A stretch of 64,000 nt of DNA from Streptacidiphilus jeojiense (GTDB taxonomy: Bacteria; Actinomycetota; Actinomycetes; Streptomycetales; Streptomycetaceae): positions 1 through 64,000 of the forward strand of contig NZ_JOEH01000008.1 in assembly GCF_000719095.1 (NCBI RefSeq). Direction: 5' to 3'. The position numbers and the translations under genes were made by a program. The notes under the pieces were generated by a model. It was not told the DNA's origin. It did no database searches and saw only the letters and a program-made list of their open reading frames with translations. Of this stretch, positions 12,376 to 54,244 are shown one piece after another (positions within the stretch are counted from its first letter, which is position 1; each line of letters opens with the position of its first letter).

Positions 12376-13398
12376 TTGCGCCAGCTCGGATTCCTCACCA
12401 TCGGACTGTTCGACGGGAACGACCCCGGCCCGGGGCACGAGTCGACCCTGGAGATCATCCGGTTGGGCGAGCAACTGGGCTTCGACAGCGCCTGGGTGCG
12501 CCACCGTCACCTGCAGTACGGCATCTCCTCGCCGGTCGCCGTGCTGGCGGCGGCCTCCCAGCGCACCAGCCGCATCGAACTCGGCACCGCGGTGATCCCG
12601 CTGGGGTGGGAGAACCCGCTGCGGCTGGCCGAGGACCTGGCGACGGTCGACATCCTGTCAGGAGGCCGCCTCAACCCGGGTCTCAGCGTCGGCCCGCCCA
12701 GGCGACTGGACCAGGTGCAGGACGCGCTCTACCCCGGCACCGCCGATGCCGAGGACTTCGGCTACGACCGGATGCAGCGGCTGCTGGACTGCGTGCGCGG
12801 CGTGCCGGTCACCGGCTTCAGCGGTGTCGAGGGCTTCGAGGTGTTCTCCGACCGGGTCCAGCCGCACTCCCCCGGCCTGGGCCGGCGGATGTGGTACGGG
12901 GGCGCGAGCTCGCGCTCCGCCCGGTGGGCCGGTGAGCACGGGATGAACTTCCTGACCAGCAGCGTGGTCAAGGCGGAGTCGCCGGAGGCGCAGGAGGCGG
13001 GGACGGCGCCGGACTTCGCCGCGATCCAGCAGTCCCTCATCCGCACCTTCCGCGCGCACCACCCGGACGGCGACCGGGCCCGGGTCTCGCAGGGCCTGGT
13101 GGTCATCCCCGTCGACTCCGCCTCGGCGGAGCAGCGCGCAAAGTACCGGGCCTTAGCCGACAAGCGGATGCCACGGACCACGACCCCGCAGGGGCCTGGG
13201 CAACTGCTGTTCGCACCGGACCTGGTCGGCACCTCCGCCCAGATCGCCGAACAGCTCTACGCCCACGCCGCCTTCCGCGAGATCGACGAGGTCGCCTTCG
13301 CGCTCCCGTTCACCTTCGAGCACGAGGACTACGTCCAGATCCTCACCGACATCGCCACCCACCTCGGCCCGGCCCTCGGCTGGCGGCCCGGCGGCTGA
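12376..13398 (+). CDS. LLM-class flavin-dependent oxidoreductase
   Basis: Bacterial luciferase-like (F420- or FMN-dependent) oxidoreductase, 340 residues from TTG. Family features: N-terminal strand QLGFLTIGLFDGND, EIIRLGEQLGFDSAWVRHRHLQ (quoted in part: GEQLGFDSAWVRHRH), RIELGTAVIPLGWENPLRLAEDLATVD region with ELGTAVIPLGWENP, and LSGGRLNPGLSVGP. The start is unusual. The best ribosome binding site (GAGGAGA) serves a GTG at 12355, but codon 5 of that frame is TAG; the family-like sequence resumes right after it, and TTG at 12376 has AGGAG only three bases away. The protein may be made by reinitiation, or the TAG may be a mutation or base error. Substrate unknown. Confidence 0.82.
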   Translation: MRQLGFLTIGLFDGNDPGPGHESTLEIIRLGEQLGFDSAWVRHRHLQYGISSPVAVLAAASQRTSRIELGTAVIPLGWENPLRLAEDLATVDILSGGRLNPGLSVGPPRRLDQVQDALYPGTADAEDFGYDRMQRLLDCVRGVPVTGFSGVEGFEVFSDRVQPHSPGLGRRMWYGGASSRSARWAGEHGMNFLTSSVVKAESPEAQEAGTAPDFAAIQQSLIRTFRAHHPDGDRARVSQGLVVIPVDSASAEQRAKYRALADKRMPRTTTPQGPGQLLFAPDLVGTSAQIAEQLYAHAAFREIDEVAFALPFTFEHEDYVQILTDIATHLGPALGWRPGG

Positions 13399-23388: not shown

Positions 23389-26253
23389 TCAGCGGATCTG
23401 ACGGCGGACCAGTTCGTGGAACGGGCTGCCTGCGTCGGCGAGCAGCTCGGCCGGCGGTCCCTGCTGGACCACCCGGCCCTCCGACATCACCAGCACCCGG
23501 TCGGCGTCCAGCACCGTGGACAGCCGGTGGGCGATCACCACCCGGGTGGCGCGCAGTGCGCGGGTGCTCTCCGTCACCACCCGCTGGGTCCGGTTGTCCA
23601 GGGCGCTGGTGGCCTCGTCGAAGAAGAGGATGCGCGGACGGCGGATCAGCGCCTGAGCGATCATCAGCCGCTGTCGCTGCCCGCCGGAGACGGTGCCGCC
23701 GCCGTCGGAGAGCACGGTGTGCATGCCCATCGGCATCCGCTTGATGTCCTCGGCCAGGCCTGCCATCTCGGCGGCCTCCCAGGCCTCCTCCAGTGAGAAG
23801 GTCTCGGCGCCGCAGATGCAGTCCAGGATCGAGCCGGTGAACGGCTGGGCGTTCTGCAGCACCACCCCGCACTGACGCCGCACCGCGGTGCGGTCCAGGG
23901 CGGCCAGTTCCTGGCCGTCGTAGCGCACGCTGCCGGAGGTCGGCCGGTCGAAGCCGATGAGCAGCCGCAGCAGGGTCGACTTGCCGCAGCCGCTGGCCCC
24001 CACAATCGCCACGAACTCGCCCGGCTGCACCTGGAAGGAGACGTCGTCGAGCACCAGCGGCCCGTCCTCGGAGTAGCGGAACGACAGCTGGGCGACCTCG
24101 ATCGCGCCGGACAGCACGCCGGGCGCGATGCTCCCGCCGCCCACCTCGGGGACCTCGTCCAGCACCGGCCTGATCTGCTCGTACAGCGGCAGCACCGAGG
24201 CGGCGGACAGCAGCACGCCGGTGAGCTGGGTGACCGAGGTCAGCGCCATGGTCACGGCGGTGCTGAAGGTGAGGAAGCTGCTCGCCGAGAGGGTCCCCCG
24301 GGCCGGGCCCGCGAGCAGCATGTACATCACCAGCGTGCACAGCGGCAGGTAGAGCGCATTGAGGACGGTGATCAGGTTCTTGATCCGGCCCACCCGGCGC
24401 TGCAGTTCGCGGCTGCGGGCGAACCGGCCCGCCCAGGCGGCGTAGGCGAACTCCTCGGCTGCGGCAACGCGCAGTTTGGGCAGGCCGCGCAGAGTCTGGA
24501 AGGCCTGGTTGTTGAGCTTGTTGTTGACCGCCACCAACCGCCGCTGCCACCGCAGTTGCCACAACCCCAGGACCAGGAACACGGTGCCGATGACGGCCAC
24601 CATGGCCAGGGCCGCCAGCGCCAGCGGGACGCTGTAGTACAGCAGCAGGCCCAGGTTCACCGCGCTGACCGTGCCGGCCTGCACCGCCACCGAGCTGATG
24701 CCCGACAGCACCCGGCGGATGGCGCTGACGCCCATCGCCGCGGTGGCCAGCTCCCCGGTGGAGCGCTCCGCGAAGAAGCGGGTCGGCAGGCGCAGCAGCC
24801 GGTCCCAGACGGCCGGTTGCAGCGTGGCCTCGATGCGTCCCTCCATCCGCAGGATGGAGACGTTCTCCAGCAGCATGAAGGCGGCGGAGACCACGGTGGT
24901 GGCCACGATCGCCAGCGAGGTCTGGACGATGAGGCTCTTCTCGGCGTTCGGGACGTAGCTGCCGAGGACCTGTCCGGTCGCGATCGGCACCAGCGCCCCG
25001 AGCAGCACCGCCACCAGTCCGCCGAGGACCAGGTTCCGCAGGTCGGTCCGGGTTCCGCGCAGGCTGAAGCGGAGCAGCCGCCAGGCGGGCAGCGGCTGTT
25101 CCGGCAGCGGGCGGTAGAACATGACCGCGCGGTCCTCGAACTCCGCCGCATTCGCGGCGCCGACCCTGGTCGTCCGTCCGGTGCCGGGATGCACCACCCG
25201 GTAGCCGCCGCGCCGCCACAGCAGTGCGACCGGGGCCCCGGTACTGACCCGGTGGCCTACCAGGGGACCGGCGTTCTCGCGCCACCAGCGCCCGGTGAGC
25301 CTGACCGTGCGGGTGCGGAACCGGGAACTGAGCGCGATGCGTTCGACCGGACCGAGCCGGTCGGGCGGCGCGCCGCTCTGCCCGGGCCCGGGCGGCGTCG
25401 GGGCCAGGGCCGGGGGCGGGGCGACGGTGATTCCGGCAGCGGCCGCGACGGTGCGGCAGACGGCGAGGGCGGCCTCGTCGGATCCTGCGGCCGGTCGTCC
25501 CGTGGCCCGCCCCGAGGCGTCGGAGGTGTCGATCGAGTCCAGCAGCGCCCGGTCGGCCTGCGCCCTGACCGTCCGTCCGGCCTTCATCCCGGCCGCCGCC
25601 CGGTCCTCGTGCGCCCGCTCCAGCTGTTCGATCCGGCGGTCCACCGCGGACATCAGCCGGGTCTGCTGGTCGACCAGCCGCTGCCACAGCGCCCCGTCGA
25701 CCAGCAGGTCCCTGGCCATCTCCGCGCTGTAGGCCGCGCCGTACTGCACGCTGCCCGGGTCCACCGGCGTCCACAGGATGCCGTCGTCGGAGGACTCGTC
25801 GGGCCCCGCCGGCACCGCGCCGTCCGGTGCCGCCCCGTCCACGGTCGTCTCGAACACCGCGCGCAGGCTCCGCCCCAGCCCCCGGGCGAACGCGTCCTCC
25901 AGCGGGCTGAGTACCTGTTCGACGTAGTAGTACTGGTCGGGGCGCAGCAGTTCACGGAGCTGGATCCGCTGCAGCACACAGCCCTGCAGCGGCCTGCCGA
26001 CCAGCGTGTGCCGGGGTCCCTCGACCGGGCCGAGCAGCAGGGCCCCGGTGTCGAGCCGGCCGAGGAAGTGCCAGCGGCCCTGCTCGGCGGCGTCGACGGC
26101 GAACAGGTCCATGCCGCCGGCCGCCACCAGCCAGAGCACGTCGGGCCGCTCCAGCGACAGGCTGCGCAGGTTGGCGCAGTCGACCGGATCGCCGAGCCCG
26201 CCCAGGGCGCCGACCACCAGGTCGCCGGGCAGGGTCAGCTCCCCGGGGATCAA
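23389..26253 (-). CDS. NHLM-type bacteriocin exporter, ABC protein without peptidase domain (ABC2)
   Basis: 954-residue membrane ABC protein of the NHLM bacteriocin-system type (second ABC subunit). The N-terminal 390 residues form a cytosolic domain: LWLVAAGGMDLFAV and GRWHFLGRLDTGALLL resemble a cyclic-nucleotide-binding-like barrel, followed by a helical, basic/Ala-rich linker. Six spans lie within about 405-690. The ATPase domain (about 710-950) has Walker A VGASGCGKST, Q-loop VLQNAQPF, signature VSGGQRQRL, Walker B ILFFDEATSALD and switch His in IAHRLST. Start is TTG, overlapping the TGA of ABC1 by four bases (TTGA). It probably forms a heterodimer with ABC1 to export the processed peptide. 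Confidence 0.88.
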   Translation of the reverse strand: MIPGELTLPGDLVVGALGGLGDPVDCANLRSLSLERPDVLWLVAAGGMDLFAVDAAEQGRWHFLGRLDTGALLLGPVEGPRHTLVGRPLQGCVLQRIQLRELLRPDQYYYVEQVLSPLEDAFARGLGRSLRAVFETTVDGAAPDGAVPAGPDESSDDGILWTPVDPGSVQYGAAYSAEMARDLLVDGALWQRLVDQQTRLMSAVDRRIEQLERAHEDRAAAGMKAGRTVRAQADRALLDSIDTSDASGRATGRPAAGSDEAALAVCRTVAAAAGITVAPPPALAPTPPGPGQSGAPPDRLGPVERIALSSRFRTRTVRLTGRWWRENAGPLVGHRVSTGAPVALLWRRGGYRVVHPGTGRTTRVGAANAAEFEDRAVMFYRPLPEQPLPAWRLLRFSLRGTRTDLRNLVLGGLVAVLLGALVPIATGQVLGSYVPNAEKSLIVQTSLAIVATTVVSAAFMLLENVSILRMEGRIEATLQPAVWDRLLRLPTRFFAERSTGELATAAMGVSAIRRVLSGISSVAVQAGTVSAVNLGLLLYYSVPLALAALAMVAVIGTVFLVLGLWQLRWQRRLVAVNNKLNNQAFQTLRGLPKLRVAAAEEFAYAAWAGRFARSRELQRRVGRIKNLITVLNALYLPLCTLVMYMLLAGPARGTLSASSFLTFSTAVTMALTSVTQLTGVLLSAASVLPLYEQIRPVLDEVPEVGGGSIAPGVLSGAIEVAQLSFRYSEDGPLVLDDVSFQVQPGEFVAIVGASGCGKSTLLRLLIGFDRPTSGSVRYDGQELAALDRTAVRRQCGVVLQNAQPFTGSILDCICGAETFSLEEAWEAAEMAGLAEDIKRMPMGMHTVLSDGGGTVSGGQRQRLMIAQALIRRPRILFFDEATSALDNRTQRVVTESTRALRATRVVIAHRLSTVLDADRVLVMSEGRVVQQGPPAELLADAGSPFHELVRRQIR

Positions 26254-28532
26254 TGCTCACGCACCAGTTCGGCGTACCGCCCCGCAGCGGCGACCAGTTC
26301 CTCGTGGCGCCCGCGTTCGACCACGGTCCCGTGGTCCAGGACGACGATCTCGTCGCTGTCGCGCACCGTGCTCAGCCGGTGCGCGATCACCACGCAGGCG
26401 CAGCCGCGCCGCCGGATGTTGTCGATGATCACCCGCTCGGTCTCCGCGTCCAGGGCGCTGGTCACCTCGTCCAGGACCAGCACGCTGGGCCCGCGCACCA
26501 GGGCCCGGGCGATCTCCAGCCGTTGCCGCTGGCCGCCGGAGAAGTTGCGGCCGTCCTGCTCCACCCGGCCGTGGATGCCGCCCGGTCGCCTGGACACGGT
26601 GTCGTGGACCGCGGCGTCCCGGAGCGCGGCGAAGACCGCCTGGTCCGACACCGACGGGTCCCACAGCGCCACATTGTCGCGGACCGTGCCCTCGAAGAGG
26701 AACACGTCCTGGTCGACGAAGGAGACCGAGGCGGACAGCGAGCCGCGCGGGATCTCCGCCAACCGCCGCCCGTCGATCCGGATCTCGCCCTCCCAGGGCC
26801 GGTAGAGGCCGGAGATCAGCCGGGACACGGTCGACTTGCCACTGCCGGACCCGCCGACCAGGGCGACCTGCCGGCCGGGGCCCACCGACAGCGAGAAGTC
26901 GGTGAGCAGCGGCTTGTCGAGCGGGCTGTAGCCGAAGGTGACCCGGTCCAGCTCCACGTGCCCGCTGAGCCTGCGGGTGCTCGCGGCCGGTTCGGGCCGG
27001 GCGAACAGCGGGTCCACCGGGAAGCTCTCCACGTCCCTGAGCCTGGCCATGTCCGCCGCGAAGTCCTGGACCCGGCCGGCGACGCCGTTCAGCCGGGTGA
27101 CCGGCCCGGTGAAACTGGTCACCAGCGCCTGGAAGGCCACCAGCAGCCCGATCGAGATACCGCCGTCCGCAGCCCGCTGACCGCCGATCAGCAGGATCAG
27201 CGCGCTGTTGAGGGCTGCCAGCGCGGGGGCGACCACGGCCAGCGCCGCACTCGGCACGCCGAGCCGCTGCTGCCCGTCCAGGGTGAGCGCGTGCTGGCCG
27301 GCCCAGCGGCGGAAGTAGCCGTTCTCGCCGCCGGTGGCCTTCATCGTCTCGATCAGCTGCAGACCGCTGTAGGAGGTGTTGGTCAGCCGGGCGCCGTCCG
27401 CGCGCAGCTTCTGCACACCGGTGCCGCGGATGCGCACCACCACCCGCAGCGCCACCACGTTGAGCAGCGCGATCAGCACCCCGAGCACCGTCAGCTGCGG
27501 ATCGTAGGTCCACAGCAGCAGCGCGTAGAGGACCACGACCACGGCGTCCACCCCGGTGGCGGCGAGGTCCCTGGCCAGGGTCTCGGCCACGGTGTCGTTG
27601 GACTGCAGCCGCTGGACCAGCTCGGCCGGGTTGCGCTGGCTGAAGAAGGTGACCGGCAGCCTGAGCAGGTGCCGCAGGAACCGCGCGCTGCTCAGCGTGG
27701 ACGAGATCATGCGCCCGCGCAGCAGGTTGGCCTGCTGCAGCGCGGTCAGCCCGGCGGTCAGCGCCACCATGGCCGCCATCGCGGCGAAGAGCACCGGCAG
27801 CAGCGAGGTCTGATCACCGATCAGGAACAGGTCGATGTAGGTGCGGCTCAGGGCCGGGAGCACCGCGCCGACGACCACCAGCAGGAAGCTGGCGAGCAGG
27901 GCGGCCAGCATGGTGCCCGAGGTGCCGCGCAGCCGGGCCGGCAGGGCGCGGAGCAGGCCGGGGCGGCGACCGGCCCGACGGAAGCCCGCGCCGGGCTCGA
28001 AGGTCAGCACCACACCCGTGAAGCTGGAGTCGAAGTCCTCCGGCGTGACGAAGCGACGGCCCCGGGCCGGATCGTTGATGCGAACGCCGCGGCGGCCCAG
28101 GCGACGCACCGTGCCGTCGTAGACGACGAAATGGTTGAACTCCCAGAACAGCACCGCCGGGGCCTGCACCTGCGCCAGCGCGGTCGGTTCCATCTGCATG
28201 CCCTTGGCCGCCAGGCCGTAGCCACGCGCCGCCTTGAGCACGCTGCTGGCCCGGGAGCCGTCGCGGGACACCCCGCAGGCGATCCGCAGTTCCTCCAGCG
28301 GCACATGCCGACCGTGGTGGCCGAGCACCATCGCCAGCGCCGCGGCGCCGCACTCCACGGCCTCCATCTGCAGGACGGTGGGGCTGCGCACCGCCCTCGG
28401 CCTGCGGCCCCGGGGCTGGCGCCGGCCCCGCCCCGCGCCCCGGTTCTGGTTCTGGTCGGGGCGGTGTCTCCCGCGCTCGCGCTCGCGGAGCGGCATCGGC
28501 TCCGTCGCGGCCGGGTCGTGGTGCGCGGTCAC
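26250..28532 (-). CDS. NHLM-type bacteriocin exporter with C39 peptidase domain (ABC1)
   Basis: 760 residues from a GTG start. After a very basic 45-residue tail comes a C39 double-glycine peptidase: Q55 and catalytic C61 in TVLQMEAVECGAAALAM, H134 in FNHFVVYDG and D154 in RINDPARG. Spans follow (about 195-470), then an ATPase domain with Walker A VGGSGSGKST, signature FSGGQRQRL, Walker B VLVLDEVTSALD and H in IAHRLST. All peptidase and ATPase residues look intact. Its GTG overlaps the HlyD stop (GTGA) and its TGA overlaps the ABC2 start, so the three export genes form one coupled unit. It should cleave the peptide encoded at 29525-29746 after GG. Confidence 0.92.
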   Translation of the reverse strand: MTAHHDPAATEPMPLRERERGRHRPDQNQNRGAGRGRRQPRGRRPRAVRSPTVLQMEAVECGAAALAMVLGHHGRHVPLEELRIACGVSRDGSRASSVLKAARGYGLAAKGMQMEPTALAQVQAPAVLFWEFNHFVVYDGTVRRLGRRGVRINDPARGRRFVTPEDFDSSFTGVVLTFEPGAGFRRAGRRPGLLRALPARLRGTSGTMLAALLASFLLVVVGAVLPALSRTYIDLFLIGDQTSLLPVLFAAMAAMVALTAGLTALQQANLLRGRMISSTLSSARFLRHLLRLPVTFFSQRNPAELVQRLQSNDTVAETLARDLAATGVDAVVVVLYALLLWTYDPQLTVLGVLIALLNVVALRVVVRIRGTGVQKLRADGARLTNTSYSGLQLIETMKATGGENGYFRRWAGQHALTLDGQQRLGVPSAALAVVAPALAALNSALILLIGGQRAADGGISIGLLVAFQALVTSFTGPVTRLNGVAGRVQDFAADMARLRDVESFPVDPLFARPEPAASTRRLSGHVELDRVTFGYSPLDKPLLTDFSLSVGPGRQVALVGGSGSGKSTVSRLISGLYRPWEGEIRIDGRRLAEIPRGSLSASVSFVDQDVFLFEGTVRDNVALWDPSVSDQAVFAALRDAAVHDTVSRRPGGIHGRVEQDGRNFSGGQRQRLEIARALVRGPSVLVLDEVTSALDAETERVIIDNIRRRGCACVVIAHRLSTVRDSDEIVVLDHGTVVERGRHEELVAAAGRYAELVREH

Positions 28533-29335
28533 GGAAGGACCCAATCGATCGGATGCTGGGCGGCCAGCTGGATGGAGCCGCCGACCAGGGTGGTGGACTC
28601 GACCGCGTACGGGGGGCCCTGCGCCGAGGACCAGGCGTACCCGGACTTCGTCCCCGTGGAGCGGTCCAACTGGACCATGACGGCCACCGGTTGGCCCTGG
28701 GCCGAGAACTGCGCGCCCAGTTGGCCGTCGCCGAGGAAGGCACTGATCTGCTGCTGGGTCTGCGGCACCCGGCCGACCGCCAGCACGCGTCCGCGCAGCG
28801 TGCCGTAGCGCTGCGCGGGCACCGACTGCAGCGTCAGTTCGACGGCGGCGCCCACCGGGATCGTCGACGCCCCGCCGCTGGACGCGTACAGCACCGCCAC
28901 CAGCGGGTCCTCGGGGCTGTTGATCCGCTCCAGGGTGGCCAGGTCCGCCCCCACGGCGACGACGGCGCCGATTCCCGCCGCCAGGGCCGTCACCCGGCCC
29001 GCGGCCACCGTGCGCACCGTCTGGACCTTCGCGTCGGTGCGCAGGCTCAGCAACGGCGCCCCGGCGGCCAGCGTGTCCCCCTGGGCGGCGAACACGGCGG
29101 TGACCTGTCCCGCGAACGGGCTCTGCAGGGTGTAACTCCCCTGTGCGAACGTCAGAATTCCGGGCGCAGCTATTTTGGACGAGACCGAACCGGTGACGGC
29201 CCAGAACCCGGCCACCGCCATAACCAGCACGGTGACCGTCAGAACCAGCCTGCCCTGCGGCCGCGCCAAATGCACAGGTACGTCGAGCTCCTCGGGCGAC
29301 TGCAGCTTCGAAAGCGCCTTCTGGCGGAATTGCAC
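28529..29335 (-). CDS. NHLM-type HlyD-family secretion protein
   Basis: Membrane-fusion/periplasmic-adaptor-like component of the peptide exporter, 268 residues from GTG 29335 (VQFRQKAL), chosen because AAGGA sits 9-13 bases upstream; a GTG at 29356 would add seven residues without such a site. N-terminal QKALSKLQSPEELD is typical for this NHLM family, followed by one span (LVLTVTVLVMAVAGFWAV) and a biotinyl-lipoyl-like barrel (SPFAGQVTAVFAAQGDTLAAG, quoted in part: SPFAGQVTAVFAAQGD). In a Gram-positive envelope it would act as an accessory of the ABC pair. The stop overlaps the ABC1 start by four bases; 189 bases separate it from the peptide gene. Confidence 0.85.
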   Translation of the reverse strand: MQFRQKALSKLQSPEELDVPVHLARPQGRLVLTVTVLVMAVAGFWAVTGSVSSKIAAPGILTFAQGSYTLQSPFAGQVTAVFAAQGDTLAAGAPLLSLRTDAKVQTVRTVAAGRVTALAAGIGAVVAVGADLATLERINSPEDPLVAVLYASSGGASTIPVGAAVELTLQSVPAQRYGTLRGRVLAVGRVPQTQQQISAFLGDGQLGAQFSAQGQPVAVMVQLDRSTGTKSGYAWSSAQGPPYAVESTTLVGGSIQLAAQHPIDWVLP

Positions 29336-29418
29336 AAACCATTCCTTTGAATGCACCGGTAGCGGTCGGGCATTTTTGCACCCGACCGCACCACACGATG
29401 TCCATCACTTCTGTCGAA

Positions 29419-29461
29419 CGGCGACGGGCCCCGGCCCGAGGAATCCCGGGGCCCGTCGCCG
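29419..29461 (-). terminator. Strong hairpin between precursor peptide and exporter genes
   Basis: A perfect 16-bp stem: CGGCGACGGGCCCCGG pairs with CCGGGGCCCGTCGCCG around an 11-base loop. It starts 64 bases after the peptide stop codon and lies 84 bases before the HlyD start. No T-run follows. The likely role is partial termination or 3-prime-end protection, giving more peptide mRNA than exporter mRNA, as in many bacteriocin operons. Confidence 0.8.
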
Positions 29462-29524
29462 CTCATGTGCTCCGGACCGTGAAGTCCGGGGCGACCCCCG
29501 ACGTCGGAGACTGGCTGCCGACGG

Positions 29525-29746
29525 TCAGAGGCCCGCGAGCCCGGTGACCTGACCCGGGACCAGGCTGGTGACCTGCGAGAGCGTCTGGCCGACGCCGCTC
29601 GGCAGCAGGGACTCGGTGGCACCGAGGACGGGCGAGGTGACGCCGGAGACGTCGAGCCCGAGGATGCCGACGCCGCCGGAGACGCTGTCCAGGTCGCTGT
29701 CGGAGATCTCGCGGGTCTCGACCTGCGGCGTGAAGTCCTTACGCAT
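29525..29746 (-). CDS. Double-glycine leader bacteriocin-type precursor peptide, Cys-free core
   Basis: 73-residue precursor. The leader (1-25) ends EISDSDLDSVSGG, the classic double-glycine motif recognised by C39 peptidases, with conserved EISDxDLD spacing of type-A2-lantipeptide-like leaders. Cleavage after G25 releases a 48-residue core starting VGILGLDVSG and ending QVTGLAGL. The core has no cysteine, no lysine or arginine and no aromatic residue; it is rich in Gly, Val, Leu, Ser and Thr with net charge about -2. GAAGGGAAA precedes the ATG. The exporter with peptidase follows immediately on the same strand. Without Cys a lanthionine product is impossible, and no modifying enzyme is nearby. 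Unmodified hydrophobic peptide, self-assembling peptide or signal are all possible. Confidence 0.85.
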   Translation of the reverse strand: MRKDFTPQVETREISDSDLDSVSGGVGILGLDVSGVTSPVLGATESLLPSGVGQTLSQVTSLVPGQVTGLAGL

Positions 29747-29880
29747 GGCTTTTGTTTCCCTTCACTGCTGTGGGTACTGCCGAATTGTTTCGGCCGGATC
29801 TGGAGGACGCCAGGCCGGCCGCTTCAACGGTTGCCTGGACCCCGAATATCGGGGGCCAGTCCTTGCGACTTCCGCCGATG

Positions 29881-29893
29881 GATTGATCCAATC
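29881..29893. promoter_or_regulatory. Inverted repeat in precursor peptide promoter region
   Basis: GATTG-ATC-CAATC is an exact dyad 135 bases upstream of the peptide start, within the 293-base gap 29747-30039, which is less GC-rich than its flanks. It is a candidate operator or activator site for the peptide operon. A leftward frame at 29762-30007 shows no coding signature and I do not call it. Confidence 0.35.
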
Positions 29894-30039
29894 ATGACAA
29901 AGGATGGTTCGTCCAGTCAGCCTGTCGGATATTCCGTGAACATTTCCGGACCCGACAGCAATACCGTCCACTATTCCCCACGGAATTGTGACGGCATCTT
30001 CACACATTTCCGGTAACCCGCTCCGGCACCGATCACGGG

Positions 30040-30807
30040 TCAGCTCCCGGTGGCGATCTGGTCGAGCCGGTCCACCCGGCCCTGGGCGTCCCGGCCGATG
30101 CCGAACAGCTGCTCGGGGTGGAGCACCAGACCGGCCGCCAGGCCCGTGAGCGTGTTCACCGACGAACCGGTGCCCGCGCTCAGCGGGGCCGTGGTGGTGA
30201 CCACCGCGTCCGGGAGCACCTGGAGCAACTGCACCGCCCCGCTCGGTACCAGCTGTCCGCGCACGCAGTCGACCGGAACCGCGTACAGCAGTGCGTCCAC
30301 GCCCGGGGTGAGACCGGCCGGCAGCTGGAGCGACTGCACCCGCTCCAGGGTCTCCCCGGTCCGGGCCACCGCGCAGCCCAGCACCTGGCCGGGGTCCGAC
30401 GACGCCGAGGTGGCGGCGGTCGAGGGTCCGCTCGGCCTGATCGGGGCGGCGGCGGTGGAGGCGGCCACGTCCGGGGCGCTGCTCGGGGTCGGCGACGGCC
30501 TCGACTCCGCCGGCCCGGTGGTCCGCGGCGCGGCGGGTGCCGTCCCCGGTGCGGACGTGGTCGGGATCACGGCGGACACCGTGGGAACCCGCTGCGGGCC
30601 GGAGCCGAGGGCTCCGGAGATCGCGAAAGCCGTGCCGCCGACCAGCAGCCCCGACAGCGCCAGGGCCGGCGCGCCCAGCACCCAGGGCCGCCGGCGCCGC
30701 TCCGCCCGGCGGCGCAACTCGGCCCCACTCAGCGGCGGTTCACCTGCGGCGGTCGCCGCGAGGCCGCGCAGCGACTCCCGGAGGCGCTCATTGCGTTCGC
30801 TCATCAC
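30040..30807 (-). CDS. Single-span membrane protein, putative anti-sigma partner
   Basis: 255 residues. A cytosolic, arginine-rich N-terminus of about 42 residues (MSERNERLRESLRGL, GAELRRRAERRRRPW) precedes one span (APALALSGLLVGGTAFAISG). Then comes an Ala/Pro/Ser/Thr linker of roughly 80 residues and an extracytoplasmic domain with two cysteines (VLGCAVAR and VDCVRGQ). There is no zinc-binding HxxxCxxC motif. The start (GTG 30807 or ATG 30804) overlaps the sigma-factor stop codon, so the two are coupled, and topology fits a membrane-tethered anti-sigma or accessory regulator. Possible alternative: an unrelated secreted-domain protein controlled with the sigma gene. Confidence 0.65.
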   Translation of the reverse strand: MMSERNERLRESLRGLAATAAGEPPLSGAELRRRAERRRRPWVLGAPALALSGLLVGGTAFAISGALGSGPQRVPTVSAVIPTTSAPGTAPAAPRTTGPAESRPSPTPSSAPDVAASTAAAPIRPSGPSTAATSASSDPGQVLGCAVARTGETLERVQSLQLPAGLTPGVDALLYAVPVDCVRGQLVPSGAVQLLQVLPDAVVTTTAPLSAGTGSSVNTLTGLAAGLVLHPEQLFGIGRDAQGRVDRLDQIATGS

Positions 30808-31352
30808 GCTGACATTTCCATCAGGTCATCGGACAGATGCTTGGCCAGAGCCGCCCTGGCCCGTGACAGCCGGACCTTCACGGTGCCCTCCGGCGCCCCG
30901 GTCTCCCGGGCGACCTCGGCCACCGGCAGATCGCACAGGTAGTGCAGGACAACCACTCGACGCTGCTCCTCCGATATCTTGCGCAGCGCTGCCACCAGCG
31001 CTGCGTACTCCGGTCCCGGGCCCGGGGCGTCCGGCAGGGCGCCGTGCCGGAACACCGCCAGCAGCGAGCTGCGGGCCCGCCGCCATCTGCTCACCGCCAG
31101 CCGCCAGGCCACCGTTCGCACCCAGGCCTCCGGCGCCTGCGCCCCGGACAGCTCCTCGCGCCCGCGCCAGGCCCGGACGAAGGCCTCCTGGACCACGTCC
31201 TGCGCCTCGGCCAGGTTCCCGGTCATCGCGTACAGCTGACCGACCAGCCGCGACCAGCTGCCGGCGTAGAACTCGTCGAACTCGTCAGGCGACAAGCGGC
31301 TCCCGCTCCCTGCTCCGGCGGCATCCGGCCCTTCCCGCCGTACGCGGGACAC
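30804..31352 (-). CDS. ECF-like (SigE-family) RNA polymerase sigma factor
   Basis: 182 residues. Region 2 is visible at about 25-95 (DEFDEFYAGSWSRLVGQLYA, shown in part as FDEFYAGSWSRLVGQ; AEAQDVVQEAFVRAWRG; WVRTVAWRLAVSRWRR) and region 4 at about 120-175 (ISEEQRRVVVLHYLCDLPVAEVA in part; GAPEGTVKVRLSRARAAL, the recognition helix). GTG start with a weak site; a later start is possible. It is followed with a 4-base overlap by the membrane protein, and then, 293 bases on, by the peptide export operon on the same strand. Control of the peptide operon or of its own surface-stress regulon are both possible. Confidence 0.88.
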   Translation of the reverse strand: MSRVRREGPDAAGAGSGSRLSPDEFDEFYAGSWSRLVGQLYAMTGNLAEAQDVVQEAFVRAWRGREELSGAQAPEAWVRTVAWRLAVSRWRRARSSLLAVFRHGALPDAPGPGPEYAALVAALRKISEEQRRVVVLHYLCDLPVAEVARETGAPEGTVKVRLSRARAALAKHLSDDLMEMSA

Positions 31353-33641: not shown

Positions 33642-33879
33642 CAAGTCAAGGGTTTCGGCGCGGCCGCCCACGCAGGCAGCACACACCCCACCACCGGCCC
33701 GGACCCGACCGCCACCAGCACCTTCGAGGCCGCCGGGAAGTCCACCACCCGGCTCCCGATCTGACCGCGCCTCACCTCACCTGCGCCAATCGACGCCTGG
33801 GTCCGGTGCCGCGCTCCCCGCCTTTCCAGACATCTTGACTGTACTCGTCCAGGCTGCTTCTCTAATACCTCACACGCCA

Positions 33880-33895
33880 CTTGGTCTAAACCAAT
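33880..33895. promoter_or_regulatory. DasR-responsive element (dre) upstream of chitinase
   Basis: The core TGGTCTAAACCA differs at one position from the known dre core TGGTCTAGACCA, and the flanks CT/AT keep symmetry. DasR, a GntR-type repressor released by amino-sugar phosphates, controls chitinase and N-acetylglucosamine genes in streptomycetes. The site is 72 bases upstream of the chitinase start. Confidence 0.75.
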
Positions 33896-33908
33896 GGCGA
33901 TCATCTCA

Positions 33909-33920
33909 TGAATCGATTCA
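33909..33920. promoter_or_regulatory. LacI-like operator TGAATCGATTCA (chitinase)
   Basis: A perfect 12-bp palindrome with central CG, 47 bases upstream of the chitinase start and just downstream of the dre. The TGAATCG half-site recurs upstream of the GH78-like gene (35647) and the GH76 gene (43365), which argues for one regulator. Central-CG palindromes are typical of LacI-family repressors of carbohydrate genes. Confidence 0.6.
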
Positions 33921-33966
33921 GAGCGGAGGTCGGATGCCGTCCGCCCGCATCGAAGAAAGAGGAAAG

Positions 33967-35592
33967 ATGTCCGCACGCAGAAAGTTCGTCTCCGTATTAT
34001 CAACCCTGGGGGTGATCGGGGCCGTCGCGGTCTCCGGATTCACCACCGCCGCCCCGGCGGTCGCGGCCTCGTCCCCCAACGCCTGGCCCGCCCATGTGTT
34101 CGCCCCCTTCGTGGACACCTGGTCGAACAATGTGACCCTCACCGAGGCCGCCAACACCTACGGCACCAAGTTCTTCACCATCGCCTTCGTCGACGGCACC
34201 GGCTGTCAGTGGTCGATCGGCGAGCAGAGCACCGTGCAGTCCGAGATCGACAGCCTCCGCGCCGTCGGCGGCGACGTCTCGGTGTCCTTCGGCGGCTACA
34301 CCACCGACAACAACCTGACCGAGCTGGGCGACTCCTGCTCCTCCCCCGAGGCGGCGGCGGCCCAGATCGAGTCGGTGGTCACCACCTTCAACCTGTCCCA
34401 CCTCGACTTCGACATCGAGGCGACCTCGCTGACCAACTCAACCGGCATCGACCGCCGCGACAAGGCCCTGGCCGAGGTCCGCTCCTGGGCGAGCTCCAAC
34501 GGCCGCTCGCTGTCGATCTCCTTCACCGTGCCGGCCACCTCCGGCGGCCTCAGCGGCGACGGGGTCAGCCTGCTCAACAACGCGCACGCCGACGGCTTCA
34601 CGCCCGACGTCGTCAACCTGATGACGATGGACTACGGAGCCTCCGGCGTCGAGATGGGCAACGCCGCCAACTCGGCCGTGGACGCCGCGGCCGGCCAGGT
34701 CGCCAGCGCCTTCGGCATCTCCTCGGCCGCGGCGTACGCCAAGCTCGGAAACACCCCGATGATCGGTCAGAACGACAGCGCCGGTGAGATCTTCACCCTC
34801 GCCGACGCAGCCAGCGTCGAGAGCTACGACGCGTCCAAGGGCATCGCCCTGCTGTCGTACTGGGACGAGAACCGCGACAACGGCGGCTGCCCCGGAACGA
34901 CCACGGCCTCGGGCACCTGCAGCGGCATCAGCCAGAGCACCGGCGACTTCGCCCGCGCCTTCCAGCCGTTCACCTCGGGCAGCAGCACCGGCGGCGGCTC
35001 CGGCTCCGGCAGCGCACTGGCCGGGACCTGGACCCAGTGCGCCTCCGAGAACGGCACCTGCGCCGTCGACGGGCACAAGACGGTGGCCTTCGGCGCCGCC
35101 GGCAAGTTCAACTACGGCACCCTGGGCAACTCCACCCCCTGCACCACCGGCGTCTTCGGCGACCCCGACCCGGGCGTGGTCAAGGCCTGCTACACCGAGA
35201 CACCCCCACCGGCCTCCAACACCTGGACCTCCTGCGCCGCCGAGAACGGCAGCTGCTCCTTCGCTGGCGTCATGACCGTGGCCTACGGAGCCAACGGCTC
35301 CTACAACTACGCCACCCTGCCCGGCGGCACCACCTGCTCCAACTCCGTCTTCGGCGACCCCGCCTCCGGCAGCGTCAAGTCCTGCTACGTGATCGCACCC
35401 CCGCCGTCCTTCACCACCTGGACCAGCTGCGCCGCCGAGAACGGCAGCTGCTCCTTCAGCGGCACCCACGAGGTCGCCTACGGAGCCAACGGCCAGTACT
35501 CCTACCAGGCCGTCACCAACGCGACCGGGTGCAGCAATTCGGTATTCGGCGACCCCATTCCGGGGACGGTCAAGAGCTGCTACGTGCAGTAG
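33967..35592 (+). CDS. Secreted GH18 chitinase with triple C-terminal repeat
   Basis: 541-residue exported chitinase. ATG 33967 follows AGAGGAAAG; signal peptide about 1-34 ends APAVAA. The GH18 barrel has SVSFGGY (105-111), the catalytic motif LDFDIEA with D147, D149 and E151 (general acid), and later VNLMTMDYG and LLSYWDENRD. It resembles the short bacterial chitinases in which the catalytic domain is about 300 residues. A Gly/Ser linker (GSSTGGGSGSGSA) leads to three tandem repeats of about 60 residues (354-541), probably carbohydrate-binding. Expression should respond to amino sugars through the dre and to a second regulator through TGAATCGATTCA. Confidence 0.9.
   Translation: MSARRKFVSVLSTLGVIGAVAVSGFTTAAPAVAASSPNAWPAHVFAPFVDTWSNNVTLTEAANTYGTKFFTIAFVDGTGCQWSIGEQSTVQSEIDSLRAVGGDVSVSFGGYTTDNNLTELGDSCSSPEAAAAQIESVVTTFNLSHLDFDIEATSLTNSTGIDRRDKALAEVRSWASSNGRSLSISFTVPATSGGLSGDGVSLLNNAHADGFTPDVVNLMTMDYGASGVEMGNAANSAVDAAAGQVASAFGISSAAAYAKLGNTPMIGQNDSAGEIFTLADAASVESYDASKGIALLSYWDENRDNGGCPGTTTASGTCSGISQSTGDFARAFQPFTSGSSTGGGSGSGSALAGTWTQCASENGTCAVDGHKTVAFGAAGKFNYGTLGNSTPCTTGVFGDPDPGVVKACYTETPPPASNTWTSCAAENGSCSFAGVMTVAYGANGSYNYATLPGGTTCSNSVFGDPASGSVKSCYVIAPPPSFTTWTSCAAENGSCSFSGTHEVAYGANGQYSYQAVTNATGCSNSVFGDPIPGTVKSCYVQ
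35026..35589 (+). repeat. Three tandem ~60-residue, four-Cys repeats (chitinase C-terminus)
   Basis: Each unit starts TWT(Q/S)CA-ENG-C, contains VA(F/Y)GA-G and ends VFGDP-G--K-CY. Four cysteines per unit suggest two disulfides. The same three units, in the same order, end the GH78-like protein (37820-38383); corresponding units across the two proteins are more alike than neighbours within one. I do not recognise the domain by name with certainty; substrate binding is the likely role. Confidence 0.8.
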
Positions 35593-35646
35593 CCCTGCAG
35601 CACATCCCACGCACAATTCCGACGGCGGCATGCAACACCCCGACAA

Positions 35647-35658
35647 TGAATCGTTACA
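35647..35658. promoter_or_regulatory. LacI-like operator TGAATCGTTACA (GH78-like gene)
   Basis: Twelve bases sharing TGAATCG with the chitinase and GH76 sites; the right half TTACA is a weaker match. It lies 71 bases upstream of the GH78-like start, in the 136-base gap after the chitinase gene, so this gene may have its own promoter. Confidence 0.5.
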
Positions 35659-35728
35659 TGTCGCCGTCGAACCCCTCTGGTGGACGGAGCCCCGCTCCGT
35701 CCACCACCCCCATGAGGAAGGCTGGACG

Positions 35729-38386
35729 ATGTCCCGAGTCCCCCTGCATCGCGCGTACCGCCTCGCGCTGACCGTCAGCGCCTGCACCGCCCTGCTCGTC
35801 GCGCCCACCCTCGGATCGCCCGACCGGGCGACCGCCGCCTCGGCGACCGATCCGGGCAGCGCCTACAACCTCTCGCCCACCTCGCGGACCCTGTCCCCGG
35901 CCTCCGTCCACAGCACCACCGGGACCGTCAGCAGCCCGTCCAACCTGCTGTCCGGCCAGTCCACCCGGCTGACCGGACAGGGCTCCGCGGTCACCCTGGA
36001 CTTCGGCAAGGAGGTCGGCGGCATCGTCACCCTGCACTTCGCCGGCTCCAGCAACAGCAGCCAGAGCGTCGGGCTGGCCTTCACCGAGTCGCCCCAGTAC
36101 ATCGGCACCAGCAGCGACAACTCCGCCGGCGGCACCGACGGCGCCATCTACGCCACCGTCTCGGGCTCAGGCAGCTACACCATGCCCACCGACAAGCTCC
36201 GCGGCGGCTTCCGCTACCTGACCCTCTTCCTCAACTCGTCCGGCTGGGTGGACCTCAACGGCGTCTCGCTCAACTTCACCGCGGCGCCGGGCGTCAGCGA
36301 CCCGGCCGCCTACCCCGACTACTTCTACTCCAACGACGACCTGCTCAACCGGATCTGGTACGCGGGCGCCTACACCGTGCAGCTGAACACCATCGACCCC
36401 ACCCAGGGCCGGGTCTACCCGCCGGTGTCCTCGGGCTGGGAGAACAACGGCACGGTCGGCTCGGGCAGCGAGGTGCTGGTGGACGGCGCCAAGCGGGACC
36501 GCTCCATCTGGTCCGGCGACCTGGGCATCTCCACCCCCACCGCCTACGTCAGCACCGGCGACACCCTCGGCACCCGCAACTCGCTGAACGCGCTCTATGC
36601 GGACCAGAAGTCGTCCGGCGAACTCCCTTGGGGCGGACCGGGGTTCAACCTCTACAGCTCCGACACCTACCACATGTGGACGCTGATCGGCACATCGAGC
36701 TACTACCTGGAGACGGCCGACAAGGGCTGGCTCGACAGCATCTGGTCGCAGTACCAGCGCGGCGTCAGCTTCATCACCGCCAAGGTCGACGGCAACGGAC
36801 TGCTCGACGTCACCGGCACCAACGACTGGGCCCGCGGCGACCAGGGCGGTGAGAACATCGAGGCCAACGCCATGCTCTACCACGTGCTGAGCACCGGCGC
36901 CTCGTTGGCGCAGGTCGAGGGCAACAGCTCGCTGGCGAGCAGCTACAGCAGCCAGGCCGCCGCCCTGCGCACCCAGATCAACGCGCGGCTCTGGGACTCG
37001 GGCACCGGGGCCTACCGGGACAACCCCAGCAGCACCCTGCACCCGCAGGACGGCAACTCACTGGCCGTCTGGTACGGCGTGGTCCCCTCCGCGACCCAGG
37101 CCACCAGCATCGCCACCTACCTGCGCGGCAACTGGAGCAGCATCGGCGCGAAGACCCCGGAGTTCAACGGCAACATCTCACCGTTCGCCGGCTCCATGGA
37201 GGTGTACGCGCACTTCACCGCCGACGACGACACCAACGCGCTGAACCTGATCCGCTCCGAGTGGGGCTACATGCTCAACTCGCCCATCGGCACCGGCAGC
37301 ACCTTCTGGGAGGGCTACGGCGCCGACGGAACCCTGTCCGCCTACCCGGGCTCGTTCACCAGCATGGCGCACGGCTGGTCCACCGGGCCGACCGGCGCCC
37401 TGACCACGGACGTGCTCGGCATCGCGCCGACCGCCGCCGCCGGCGTCGGCTACCAGGTGGTCCCGCACCCCGGCGACCTCACTCACGTCGAGGGCACGCT
37501 GACCGTCGCGACCGGAAAGTCGATCCACGTCAGCTACGACCACCCGACCGACGGCAGCTTCGCCATGCAGGTCGACAGCTCCAGCAACAGCGGGTCGACC
37601 GGAGTGATCGCCGTCCCCCGGTTCGGGCAGGACCACGTGGTGAGCGTCAACGGCGCCACCGTCTGGAACGGCAGCTCCTTCACCGCCACCACCGGCATCA
37701 CCAGCGCCGACCAGGACGCCGACTACATCTACCTGCGCGGCGTCGCACCGGGCTCCTACAGCGTCAGCTACCCGGCCACCGGCACCATCTCGCCCACCCA
37801 GTACCAGGCCCTGCCCGGCAGTTGGACCCAGTGCGCGGTCGAGAACGGCACCTGCGCGGTCGACGGGCACAAGACGGTGGCCTTCGGCGCCGCCGGCAGG
37901 TTCAACTACGCCACCCTGGGCAGCTCGACCGCCTGCACCACCGGCGTCTTCGGCGACCCCGACCCCGGCACCGCGAAGGCCTGCTACACCGAGACCCCGC
38001 CACCGGCCTCCAACACCTGGACGTCGTGTGCTGCCGAGAACGCCACCTGCTCCTTCTCCGGCGTCATGACCGTGGCCTACGGAGCCAACGGCTCCTACAA
38101 CTACGCCACCCTGCCCGGCGGCGCCTCCTGCTCCAACGCCACCTTCGGCGATCCGGCCTCCGGCAGCGTCAAGTCCTGCTACCTGACCGGCGCCCCGCCC
38201 TCCTTCACCACCTGGACCAGCTGCGCCGCCGAGAGCGGCACCTGCTCGTTCAGCGGCACCCACGAGGTCGCCTACGGGGCCAACGGACAGTACTACTACC
38301 AGTCCCTCACCGGCGGCACCGCCTGCGGCAACAGCGTGTTCGGCGACCCGATCCCGGGCACAGCCAAGCTCTGCTACGTCCAGTGA
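35729..38386 (+). CDS. Secreted GH78-like alpha-L-rhamnosidase with triple C-terminal repeat
   Basis: 885 residues; ATG 35729 has AGGAAGG upstream and a signal peptide of about 35 residues. A beta-sandwich region (about 50-185) is followed by an (alpha/alpha)6 barrel: FYSNDDLLNRIWYAGAYTVQL (in part), LVDGAKRDRSIWSGDLG, the GH78-type substrate loop in place of the usual DCPQRERxGWxGD, and FWEGYGADG, a candidate general-acid Glu. A C-terminal beta domain precedes three repeats (698-885) shared with the chitinase. It should remove terminal alpha-L-rhamnose or a related sugar outside the cell. The altered loop means the sugar specificity is uncertain. Confidence 0.83.
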   Translation: MSRVPLHRAYRLALTVSACTALLVAPTLGSPDRATAASATDPGSAYNLSPTSRTLSPASVHSTTGTVSSPSNLLSGQSTRLTGQGSAVTLDFGKEVGGIVTLHFAGSSNSSQSVGLAFTESPQYIGTSSDNSAGGTDGAIYATVSGSGSYTMPTDKLRGGFRYLTLFLNSSGWVDLNGVSLNFTAAPGVSDPAAYPDYFYSNDDLLNRIWYAGAYTVQLNTIDPTQGRVYPPVSSGWENNGTVGSGSEVLVDGAKRDRSIWSGDLGISTPTAYVSTGDTLGTRNSLNALYADQKSSGELPWGGPGFNLYSSDTYHMWTLIGTSSYYLETADKGWLDSIWSQYQRGVSFITAKVDGNGLLDVTGTNDWARGDQGGENIEANAMLYHVLSTGASLAQVEGNSSLASSYSSQAAALRTQINARLWDSGTGAYRDNPSSTLHPQDGNSLAVWYGVVPSATQATSIATYLRGNWSSIGAKTPEFNGNISPFAGSMEVYAHFTADDDTNALNLIRSEWGYMLNSPIGTGSTFWEGYGADGTLSAYPGSFTSMAHGWSTGPTGALTTDVLGIAPTAAAGVGYQVVPHPGDLTHVEGTLTVATGKSIHVSYDHPTDGSFAMQVDSSSNSGSTGVIAVPRFGQDHVVSVNGATVWNGSSFTATTGITSADQDADYIYLRGVAPGSYSVSYPATGTISPTQYQALPGSWTQCAVENGTCAVDGHKTVAFGAAGRFNYATLGSSTACTTGVFGDPDPGTAKACYTETPPPASNTWTSCAAENATCSFSGVMTVAYGANGSYNYATLPGGASCSNATFGDPASGSVKSCYLTGAPPSFTTWTSCAAESGTCSFSGTHEVAYGANGQYYYQSLTGGTACGNSVFGDPIPGTAKLCYVQ
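37820..38383 (+). repeat. Three tandem ~60-residue, four-Cys repeats (GH78-like C-terminus)
   Basis: Copy of the module at 35026-35589, unit by unit in the same order; for example the first units share CAVDGHKTVAFGAAG and CTTGVFGDPDPG. DNA similarity is also high, including silent positions, which suggests recent duplication or gene conversion. Confidence 0.8.
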
Positions 38387-53360: not shown

Positions 53361-54119
53361 TCAGTGCCCGACCACCAGGCGGACGGCCCCGTGGAACTCG
53401 GGCAGGGTGCGGTGCTCCCCGTACCGCCGGTCCCAGGCGCCGGAGGCCAGGTCCGCCGCCAGGGCCCCGACGATGCGGTCCTCGACGCCCGGCTCCAGGA
53501 AGCTCCAGGCGGACTGGGAGCGACGGACCTCCGGGTCCAGCAATTCCTCGGGACGGGCGTAGAAGGCCTCGGTGAATCCGTCGACGCAGTCGATCGGGAT
53601 GGGGACCGGCACGACCTCGGTGCCGGGACCCAGCGCAGCGGTGAGCGTGTCGATGCTGGGGAAGCGTCCGGCCTCGACCTGCTGGAGTTCGGGGGCGTAG
53701 TCCATCAGCCACAGCCGTCCCAGCTCGGCCGGGTCGAAGCTCAGCACCAGCACCGGCCCGCAGGTTACCCGGCGCATCTCGCGCAGCCCGGCCACCGCGT
53801 CGGGCCACTGGTGCACGGTCACCATCGCCATGGAGGCGTCCACCGCGTCGTCGTCCAGCGGAAGGGCCTCCGCGACCGCGTCGATGGCCGGCGCCAGCTG
53901 CGGCGGACGCTGGGCCCGCATCTCGGCCGACGGCTCCACCGCCAGCACATGACGGTCCAACGGCTCGTACGACCCGGCCCCCGCCCCGACATTGAGAACC
54001 GTCCGGGCCCCGCCCAGCGCGGCGTGGACACGGGCCGCGATCCGCGGGTCGGTACGCCGCCGCCGCGCATACCCCGCGCCGATCCGCCCGTAGTCCGCAT
54101 CACCCTTGAGCTGTGCCAT
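53361..54119 (-). CDS. Class I SAM-dependent methyltransferase
   Basis: 252 residues from MAQLKGD, chosen for CAAGGGAG upstream; a frame 19 codons longer lacks a site. SAM fold: motif I VLNVGAGAGSYEP (43-55), VLAVEPSAEM, EALPLDDDAVDASMAMVTVHQW (in part: PLDDDAVDASMAMVTVHQW), REMRRVTCGPVLVLSFDP. No targeting signal. Acceptor substrate unknown. Divergent from the MFS gene over 125 bases. Confidence 0.88.
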   Translation of the reverse strand: MAQLKGDADYGRIGAGYARRRRTDPRIAARVHAALGGARTVLNVGAGAGSYEPLDRHVLAVEPSAEMRAQRPPQLAPAIDAVAEALPLDDDAVDASMAMVTVHQWPDAVAGLREMRRVTCGPVLVLSFDPAELGRLWLMDYAPELQQVEAGRFPSIDTLTAALGPGTEVVPVPIPIDCVDGFTEAFYARPEELLDPEVRRSQSAWSFLEPGVEDRIVGALAADLASGAWDRRYGEHRTLPEFHGAVRLVVGH

Positions 54120-54244
54120 CGATGGCTCCCTTGTTCGATCAGAAGGTCCATCACCATGATCCAACACCACCGACACCCCGCACCAGGTTAGGCTTCCCTG
54201 TCGCCGCTGGCGGAACTGACGGTTCCGAGGAGGGGGGCGCCGCT

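Follow-up and report, generated by a model that had tools for sequence, protein, structure and literature searches.

The export cassette and its peptide

The window analyzed here is a 64,000-nucleotide stretch of Streptacidiphilus jeojiense (contig NZ_JOEH01000008.1, positions 1 to 64,000), and it contains, on the minus strand, a small precursor peptide gene followed by three genes of an NHLM-type exporter. The precursor is encoded by an open reading frame (ORF) at 29525-29746, with an ATG start and a length of 73 amino acids (aa). Its leader, MRKDFTPQVETREISDSDLDSVSGG, is 25 aa long (29672..29746, minus strand) and ends in the double-glycine sequence EISDSDLDSVSGG, after which the core of 48 residues and the stop codon follow (29525..29671, minus strand). 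The export genes, all on the same strand, were assigned with the NCBIfam NHLM models and their curated cut-offs: an HlyD-type adaptor (TIGR03794, 28529..29356), which passed narrowly with 158.0 bits against a cut-off of 156.2, a C39 peptidase-permease-ATPase (TIGR03796, 26250..28532, 988.3 bits against 853.3), and a second permease-ATPase, without a peptidase (TIGR03797, 23389..26253, 883.8 bits against 709.4). The latter two are ATP-binding cassette (ABC) proteins, referred to below as ABC1 and ABC2; the start codon of ABC1 is likely the GTG at 28532. A preliminary description of this DNA had proposed the same order of genes, which the models bear out, together with 4-base overlaps between them. 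Such overlaps were found between HlyD and ABC1 (GTGA) and between ABC1 and ABC2 (TTGA), but the peptide and HlyD genes are separated by a 168-nt gap.

As had been described, the core contains no Cys, Lys, Arg, Phe, Trp, or Tyr and has a net charge of -2, so that lanthionine, which needs Cys, is impossible in it. Its calculated average mass is 4546.17 and its pI is ~ 4.05. The peptide matched no Pfam family (E 0.001) and no NCBIfam family (0 at E 0.1), and hence no NHLP or Nif11-type precursor model. The ORF is not a chance one, because close relatives of the peptide occur across the Streptomycetaceae. Leader columns T10, E12, I13, L18, D19, G23, and G24 are invariant across the 52 sequences of a profile alignment of these relatives (A1, see below). 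By inspection, the catalytic Cys, His, and Asp of the C39 domain are present in ABC1, and this pattern of residues is intact in 52/54 relatives.

No LanM, YcaO, radical-SAM, or LanKC domain was found among the 50 window proteins scanned with Pfam (not every ORF), in agreement with the earlier observation that the window has no such modifying gene. Two window genes, for a luciferase-like monooxygenase (12376-13398) and for a methyltransferase (53361-54176), are at a distance of 10 kb or more from the cassette. The genome of the strain gave no LanM match, with a family model that matches in 164/394 Streptomycetaceae genomes, and no YcaO match, in a search where 5/14 control genomes were positive. 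Given a core without Cys and a genome without LanM, a lanthipeptide was rejected. Three LanC-like matches were observed in the genome, all on other contigs, and the only NHLM ABC1 above cut-off is that of the cassette.

Relatives and gene neighborhoods

A database search with the peptide returned 51 homologs at E <= 0.001, from which profile A1 was built. NCBI names were shown for 12 of them, 10 being called 'type A2 lantipeptide' and 2 'hypothetical'. The lantipeptide name does not fit and probably follows the leader alone, a misannotation that misleads genome mining. Profile A1, with a limited number of candidates scored per genome (14 in those listed), matched 233/394 Streptomycetaceae genomes in 9/17 genera; in a class-level sample it matched 15/197 genomes, all 15 of them Streptomycetaceae. 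Counted by eye, 91 of the 233 peptide genomes carry two to four matches. TIGR03796 was found in 270/394 genomes at E <= 1e-200, and 245 of these were above cut-off. Compared with the 245, and with genome lists copied by eye for this table and the LanM table below, peptide and exporter occur together in 229 genomes and are both absent from 145; the rest consists of 4 peptide-only and 16 exporter-only genomes. In three of those 4, the exporter is matched in part; the fourth has no match at E <= 1e-150.

We collected 109 loci, 79 of which are named (L031-L109, stretches of up to 20 kb); 20/109 are labelled orphan, having no exporter match in the stretch, and these include the contig ends L007 and L061. 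The cassette is found in Streptomyces albidoflavus NRRL B-1271 (L070), among others. Gene clustering in the 79 loci found the peptide in 57, the ABC genes in 55, and HlyD in 38, and the next-largest family in only 6. The gene caller is of limited sensitivity, with tblastn detecting more HlyD genes than the 38 called, and at this sensitivity no conserved modifying enzyme, immunity gene, or receptor gene was found among the clusters. The 2-kb flanks of 55 complete cassettes had no further conserved small ORF among their top clusters; what they did show was conserved upstream DNA, in several frames and on both strands. A linked immunity or modifying gene was rejected, since neither the 79 loci nor the 55 cassette flanks hold a conserved candidate. 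The pairing proposed in the preliminary description, an NHLM exporter with a Cys-free acidic core and no co-located modifying enzyme, thus holds across the Streptomycetaceae.

At 14 of the 16 exporter-only loci, ABC1 is diverged, with 51-63% identity to the ABC1 of the window; full-length ABC1 matches at the named peptide loci have 75-88%. BLAST clustering places a YcaO-type protein in 12 of these 14 loci, and the two that were examined with Pfam are both YcaO; 10 have a nitroreductase/ThcOx-like protein in common, again confirmed in the two examined. Loci L160 and L161 carry luciferase-like monooxygenase genes instead, with no family peptide found, and possibly represent another NHLM product class; a small IGGG-type peptide ORF was observed in L161. 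Modifying enzymes are therefore visible beside NHLM exporters of the Streptomycetaceae where they are present, and they are missing beside the Cys-free peptide, although such counts are inflated by shared ancestry. NHLM exporters can accompany Cys-free peptides without any linked modifying enzyme. An azole product of the thiazole/oxazole-modified microcin (TOMM) class was rejected for the window, whose genome has no YcaO, though the diverged exporter-only loci do. At the ends of loci L147, L148, and L149, we observed precursor-like peptides with a related leader, ETRELSEADLDSVAGG, and a Cys-rich core. They share 16-kb stretches with a diverged NHLM exporter and a YcaO-type gene, and so present the same leader type in a modified-peptide setting.

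An unlinked enzyme might still act on the core, for example by dehydrating Ser/Thr, which would make the product a ribosomally synthesized and post-translationally modified peptide (RiPP) modified in trans. NHLM exporters have been described together with modified peptides (PMC2887384), Ser/Thr account for 20% of residues in the exporter-linked cores, and LanC-like domains lie on other contigs of the genome. Set against this are the lack of a conserved neighboring enzyme, the absence of LanM and YcaO matches from the strain's own genome (radical SAM, LanB, and LanKC were not searched genome-wide), and a negative association of peptide and LanM over the 394 genomes, with genus as a partial confounder: 61 have both, 103 have LanM only, 58 have neither, and 172 of the 233 peptide genomes have no LanM. 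We consider modification in trans decidedly unlikely.

Upstream element, core composition, and periodicity

Upstream of the peptide gene lies a promoter-like element, CTGGA-N15-CATGATTGGATC (29881..29928, minus strand), with the family form TTGGC-N15-CGTGCTTTGATC. The window's site scored 17.4, compared with 3.7 for the best of 237 shuffles, with a matrix trained on 39 sites that did not include it. The matrix exceeded the best of 237 shuffles in 62/79 upstream regions, the 39 training sites among them; these regions include the window and 13/18 separate peptides, whose genes lie away from an exporter. In 17/79 it did not exceed the shuffles. The second block, CGTGCTTTGATC, was matched at 10 or more of its 12 bases in 49/79. 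Across 1.46 Mb of locus DNA, searched on both strands, 55 matrix hits scored above 10; 54 were upstream of a family peptide and one was in L109, a locus whose peptide was dropped for a broken frame. A second upstream site, TGTGAAGATG (29995..30004, minus strand; family form TGTGAAGAAG), matched at least 9 of 10 bases in 35/79 regions. Its spacing to the promoter-like element in the 22 regions with both is 107-109 in 16 and 96-98 in 6, values ~ one helical turn apart. The probable ribosome-binding site is GAAGGGAA (29756..29763, minus strand), an 8-mer present in 44/67 less redundant upstream regions. Rfam gave 0 matches on 29300-30100.

Further upstream, a SigE-family extracytoplasmic function (ECF) sigma factor gene and a probable anti-sigma gene (30040-31352) lie on the peptide strand and end ~ 290 nt before the peptide. 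By tblastn, such a pair was found in 3/109 loci, namely L001 (the window), L002, and L079, where it lies beside a separate peptide; L046 has a weak sigma match alone. The pair was rejected as a general partner of the cassette on this count, although it may be missed in the 30/109 loci that are ~ 3 kb or shorter. Two adjacent glycoside hydrolase genes of the window, one GH18-like (33835-35592) and one rhamnosidase-like (35630-38386), share a C-terminal repeated module containing Cys, with ~ 3 copies each as read from the translations. Beyond ABC2 lies a histidine kinase gene, with a weak match at one other locus, L107.

A shared upstream element on several peptides, variable cores, and a histidine kinase near the exporter would all suit a secreted signal, a pheromone sensed by the mycelium. 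Against this role, no receptor gene is conserved near the cassette, the kinase being matched only weakly and only once elsewhere; the cores are also long (38-62 aa) and hydrophobic. We give the signal a slim chance.

To describe the cores, the 109 peptides were reduced to 90 distinct ones (73 exporter-linked and 17 others) by merging duplicates and dropping L109 and L107, whose core is apparently out of frame. In the 73 exporter-linked cores, 83% of residues are G, V, L, T, A, or S. All 73 have a net charge of -1 to -5, and 72 are without Cys, the exception being L058 with two. Lys and Arg are absent from 69/73 and Phe, Trp, and Tyr from 58/73; a conserved Pro occurs in 92%, and 46/73 end in AGL. 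The 17 other cores have Cys in 0/17 and an aromatic residue in 11/17. In L065 and L069, separate family peptides have cores with repeated HHG runs, a sequence feature that suggests a metal-binding variant.

This composition is kept while the sequence itself changes. In a comparison of 41 loci (820 pairs altogether), median core identity fell to 0.42 at 75-80% exporter identity, where shuffled cores gave 0.35. Pooled pN/pS values were 0.49 (core) and 0.41 (leader), with single close pairs above 1 on few changes. Only 6 of the 274 residue differences in 38 nearest-neighbor pairs concern C, K, R, F, W, or Y; among random non-synonymous changes, 15-21% would be expected to. The possibility raised earlier, that the core has diverged to noise in relatives, was rejected, since composition, charge, the conserved Pro, and the periodicity described next are kept despite low identity.

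Hydrophobicity along 50 non-redundant exporter-linked cores is positively correlated at spacings 3, 4, 6, 7, and 10 and negatively at 1, 2, 5, 8, and 9, and G-G pairs are in excess at spacing 4. The hydrophobic-moment spectrum of the cores peaks at 105-110 degrees, and strand angles are depleted; for the window core taken singly, the maximum is at 95 degrees. A peak at 85-125 degrees was observed in 71/73 exporter-linked cores (33% of shuffles) and 15/17 other cores (31% of shuffles). As a control for reading frame, the true frame has a power of 0.186, whereas the +1 frame peaks at 170 degrees (0.086) and the +2 frame at 85 degrees (0.076). The three reverse frames also peak at 95-110 degrees, with weaker power (0.123, 0.081, and 0.084); the opposite strand therefore mirrors some of the signal.

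The periodicity also bears on the suggestion that the core forms an aggregating surface peptide. A beta-rich, chaplin-like coat peptide would match the hydrophobic, acidic, Val/Gly-rich composition and, in the class-level sample, the restriction to Streptomycetaceae. With a repeat of 105-110 degrees and depleted strand angles, the beta or amyloid form was rejected, and the aggregating peptide of the preliminary description is not supported in this form. For the one chaplin segment extracted from the strain's genome, the peak is at 165-170 degrees. That genome has 10 matches to the chaplin domain (ChpA-C, PF03777) elsewhere; the cassette peptide has none, nor any other Pfam match. A chaplin-like coat peptide is very improbable.

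Interpretation and comparison with known systems

Taken together, the cassette may be read as follows. The C39 domain of ABC1 would recognize the conserved leader of the 73-aa ribosomal precursor and cut after GG, and the acidic, Cys-free 48-aa core would be exported by ABC1 and ABC2 with the HlyD-like adaptor; cleavage and export at these points are implied by the logic of leader and C39 peptidase known from this family. The system appears to have no modifying enzyme of its own. Outside the cell, the core would act through amphipathic helices hinged at the conserved Pro, as a surface- or membrane-active peptide of the hyphal surface resembling a peptide surfactant, rather than as a bacteriocin that kills. 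The shared leader, the upstream element, and the co-occurrence suggest one exporter for one or several Cys-free peptides, and in many relatives two to four of them, with the promoter-like element in common, appear to depend on a single exporter. We give about an even chance to an acidic amphipathic peptide that loses its leader, stays unmodified, and has an exporter of its own; its role would most likely be surface- or membrane-active and surfactant-like.

The main rival is an unmodified class II-type bacteriocin, with amphipathic, Gly-rich helices that would insert into competitor membranes and with immunity provided by the exporter or by an unlinked gene. The double-glycine leader with C39-ABC and HlyD speaks for it, as do the amphipathic helix-like core with its G-G excess at spacing 4, the fast evolution of that core, and a location on the chromosome arms (the locus is within 1.8 Mb of an end in 22/23 hand-picked single-contig genomes, with positions copied by eye). 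Yet no conserved immunity gene was seen in the 79 loci or the 55 cassette flanks, every exporter-linked core is net negative, and occurrence in 233/394 sampled species of the family is broader than expected of a strain-level weapon. Because the cores are amphipathic helix-like, acidic, and without an immunity gene, a surface- or membrane-active role fits better than a classical bacteriocin, which we regard as unlikely.

Several points weigh against the surfactant-like peptide that we favor. The role draws on composition and analogy. Gly, Val, and Thr, in which the cores are rich, disfavor helices in water, and AlphaFold models place helices at low confidence (pLDDT 58 and 60, pTM 0.19 and 0.25), models too poor to establish a fold. 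Periodicity z-scores overstate independence because the cores are related, co-occurrence counts are inflated by shared ancestry, and by pN/pS the selection on the core is moderate. Loci L150 and L151, the other two of the 16 exporter-only loci, have an ABC1 of the window type (81-83%) where the peptide is missing or truncated, no intact family peptide having been found. Finally, a trans-acting modifying enzyme may exist, given the LanC-like domains elsewhere in the genome.

Compared with known NHLM/NHLP bacteriocin export cassettes, the locus has all three export genes above curated cut-offs (HlyD narrowly), but it differs in its Cys-free substrate, in having no linked modifying enzyme, and in the lack of an NCBIfam precursor match. 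With class II lanthipeptides it shares a double-glycine leader of the EISDxDLD type and a C39-ABC exporter; it differs in the absence of Cys from nearly all exporter-linked cores and of LanM from its own genome. A 'type A2 lantipeptide' has been reported in a cluster with a C39 peptidase (PMC13047742), and a Cys-free, glycine-rich lantibiotic-like precursor lies beside LanB in Mycobacterium tusciae (PMC3951391). The leader strings were not found in the open-licence PMC literature, and no description of the Cys-free peptide family was recognized among the titles and abstract starts listed from that literature.

Class II bacteriocins and colicin V-like microcins have an unmodified, Gly-rich hydrophobic core, a double-glycine leader, and C39-ABC with an HlyD-like adaptor. 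The system described here resembles them in each of these respects, its core being unmodified-looking, and differs in its acidic core, family-wide conservation, NHLM-type exporter with two ABC proteins, and lack of a visible immunity gene. The TMcins are helix-anchored pore bacteriocins, in a paper whose main text does not contain the word 'Streptomyces' (PMC12328743).

Among unmodified peptides, the phenol-soluble modulins of staphylococci are amphipathic helical surfactants with a dedicated ABC exporter and no cleaved leader. They resemble the proposed reading of the cassette in surfactant type and dedicated exporter, a likeness by description, and differ from the cassette peptide in lacking a cleaved leader. 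Chaplins and SapB are small secreted hydrophobic peptides of Streptomyces, soil bacteria whose surface and developmental peptides draw long-standing interest, and they share these properties and the bacterial family with the peptide. One of the chaplins, ChpF, forms amyloid fibrils and has a pI of 4.2 (PMC5618249). The cassette peptide differs in its leader and C39 export genes, absence of a chaplin domain, helix-like periodicity, and inability to form lanthionine. The four-gene system is small and testable, with extra peptides sharing its upstream element. It is conceivable, though we hold this only tentatively, that chaplins and SapB are joined in the Streptomycetaceae by a third class of surface-active peptides, to which this system would belong. 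The class, present in more than half of the family genomes sampled and concealed by the lantipeptide name, would be a regulon of one dedicated NHLM exporter with between one and four acidic amphipathic-helix peptides that are Cys-free and bear a leader, some of whose genes lie at a distance from the exporter but have the promoter-like element in common with it.

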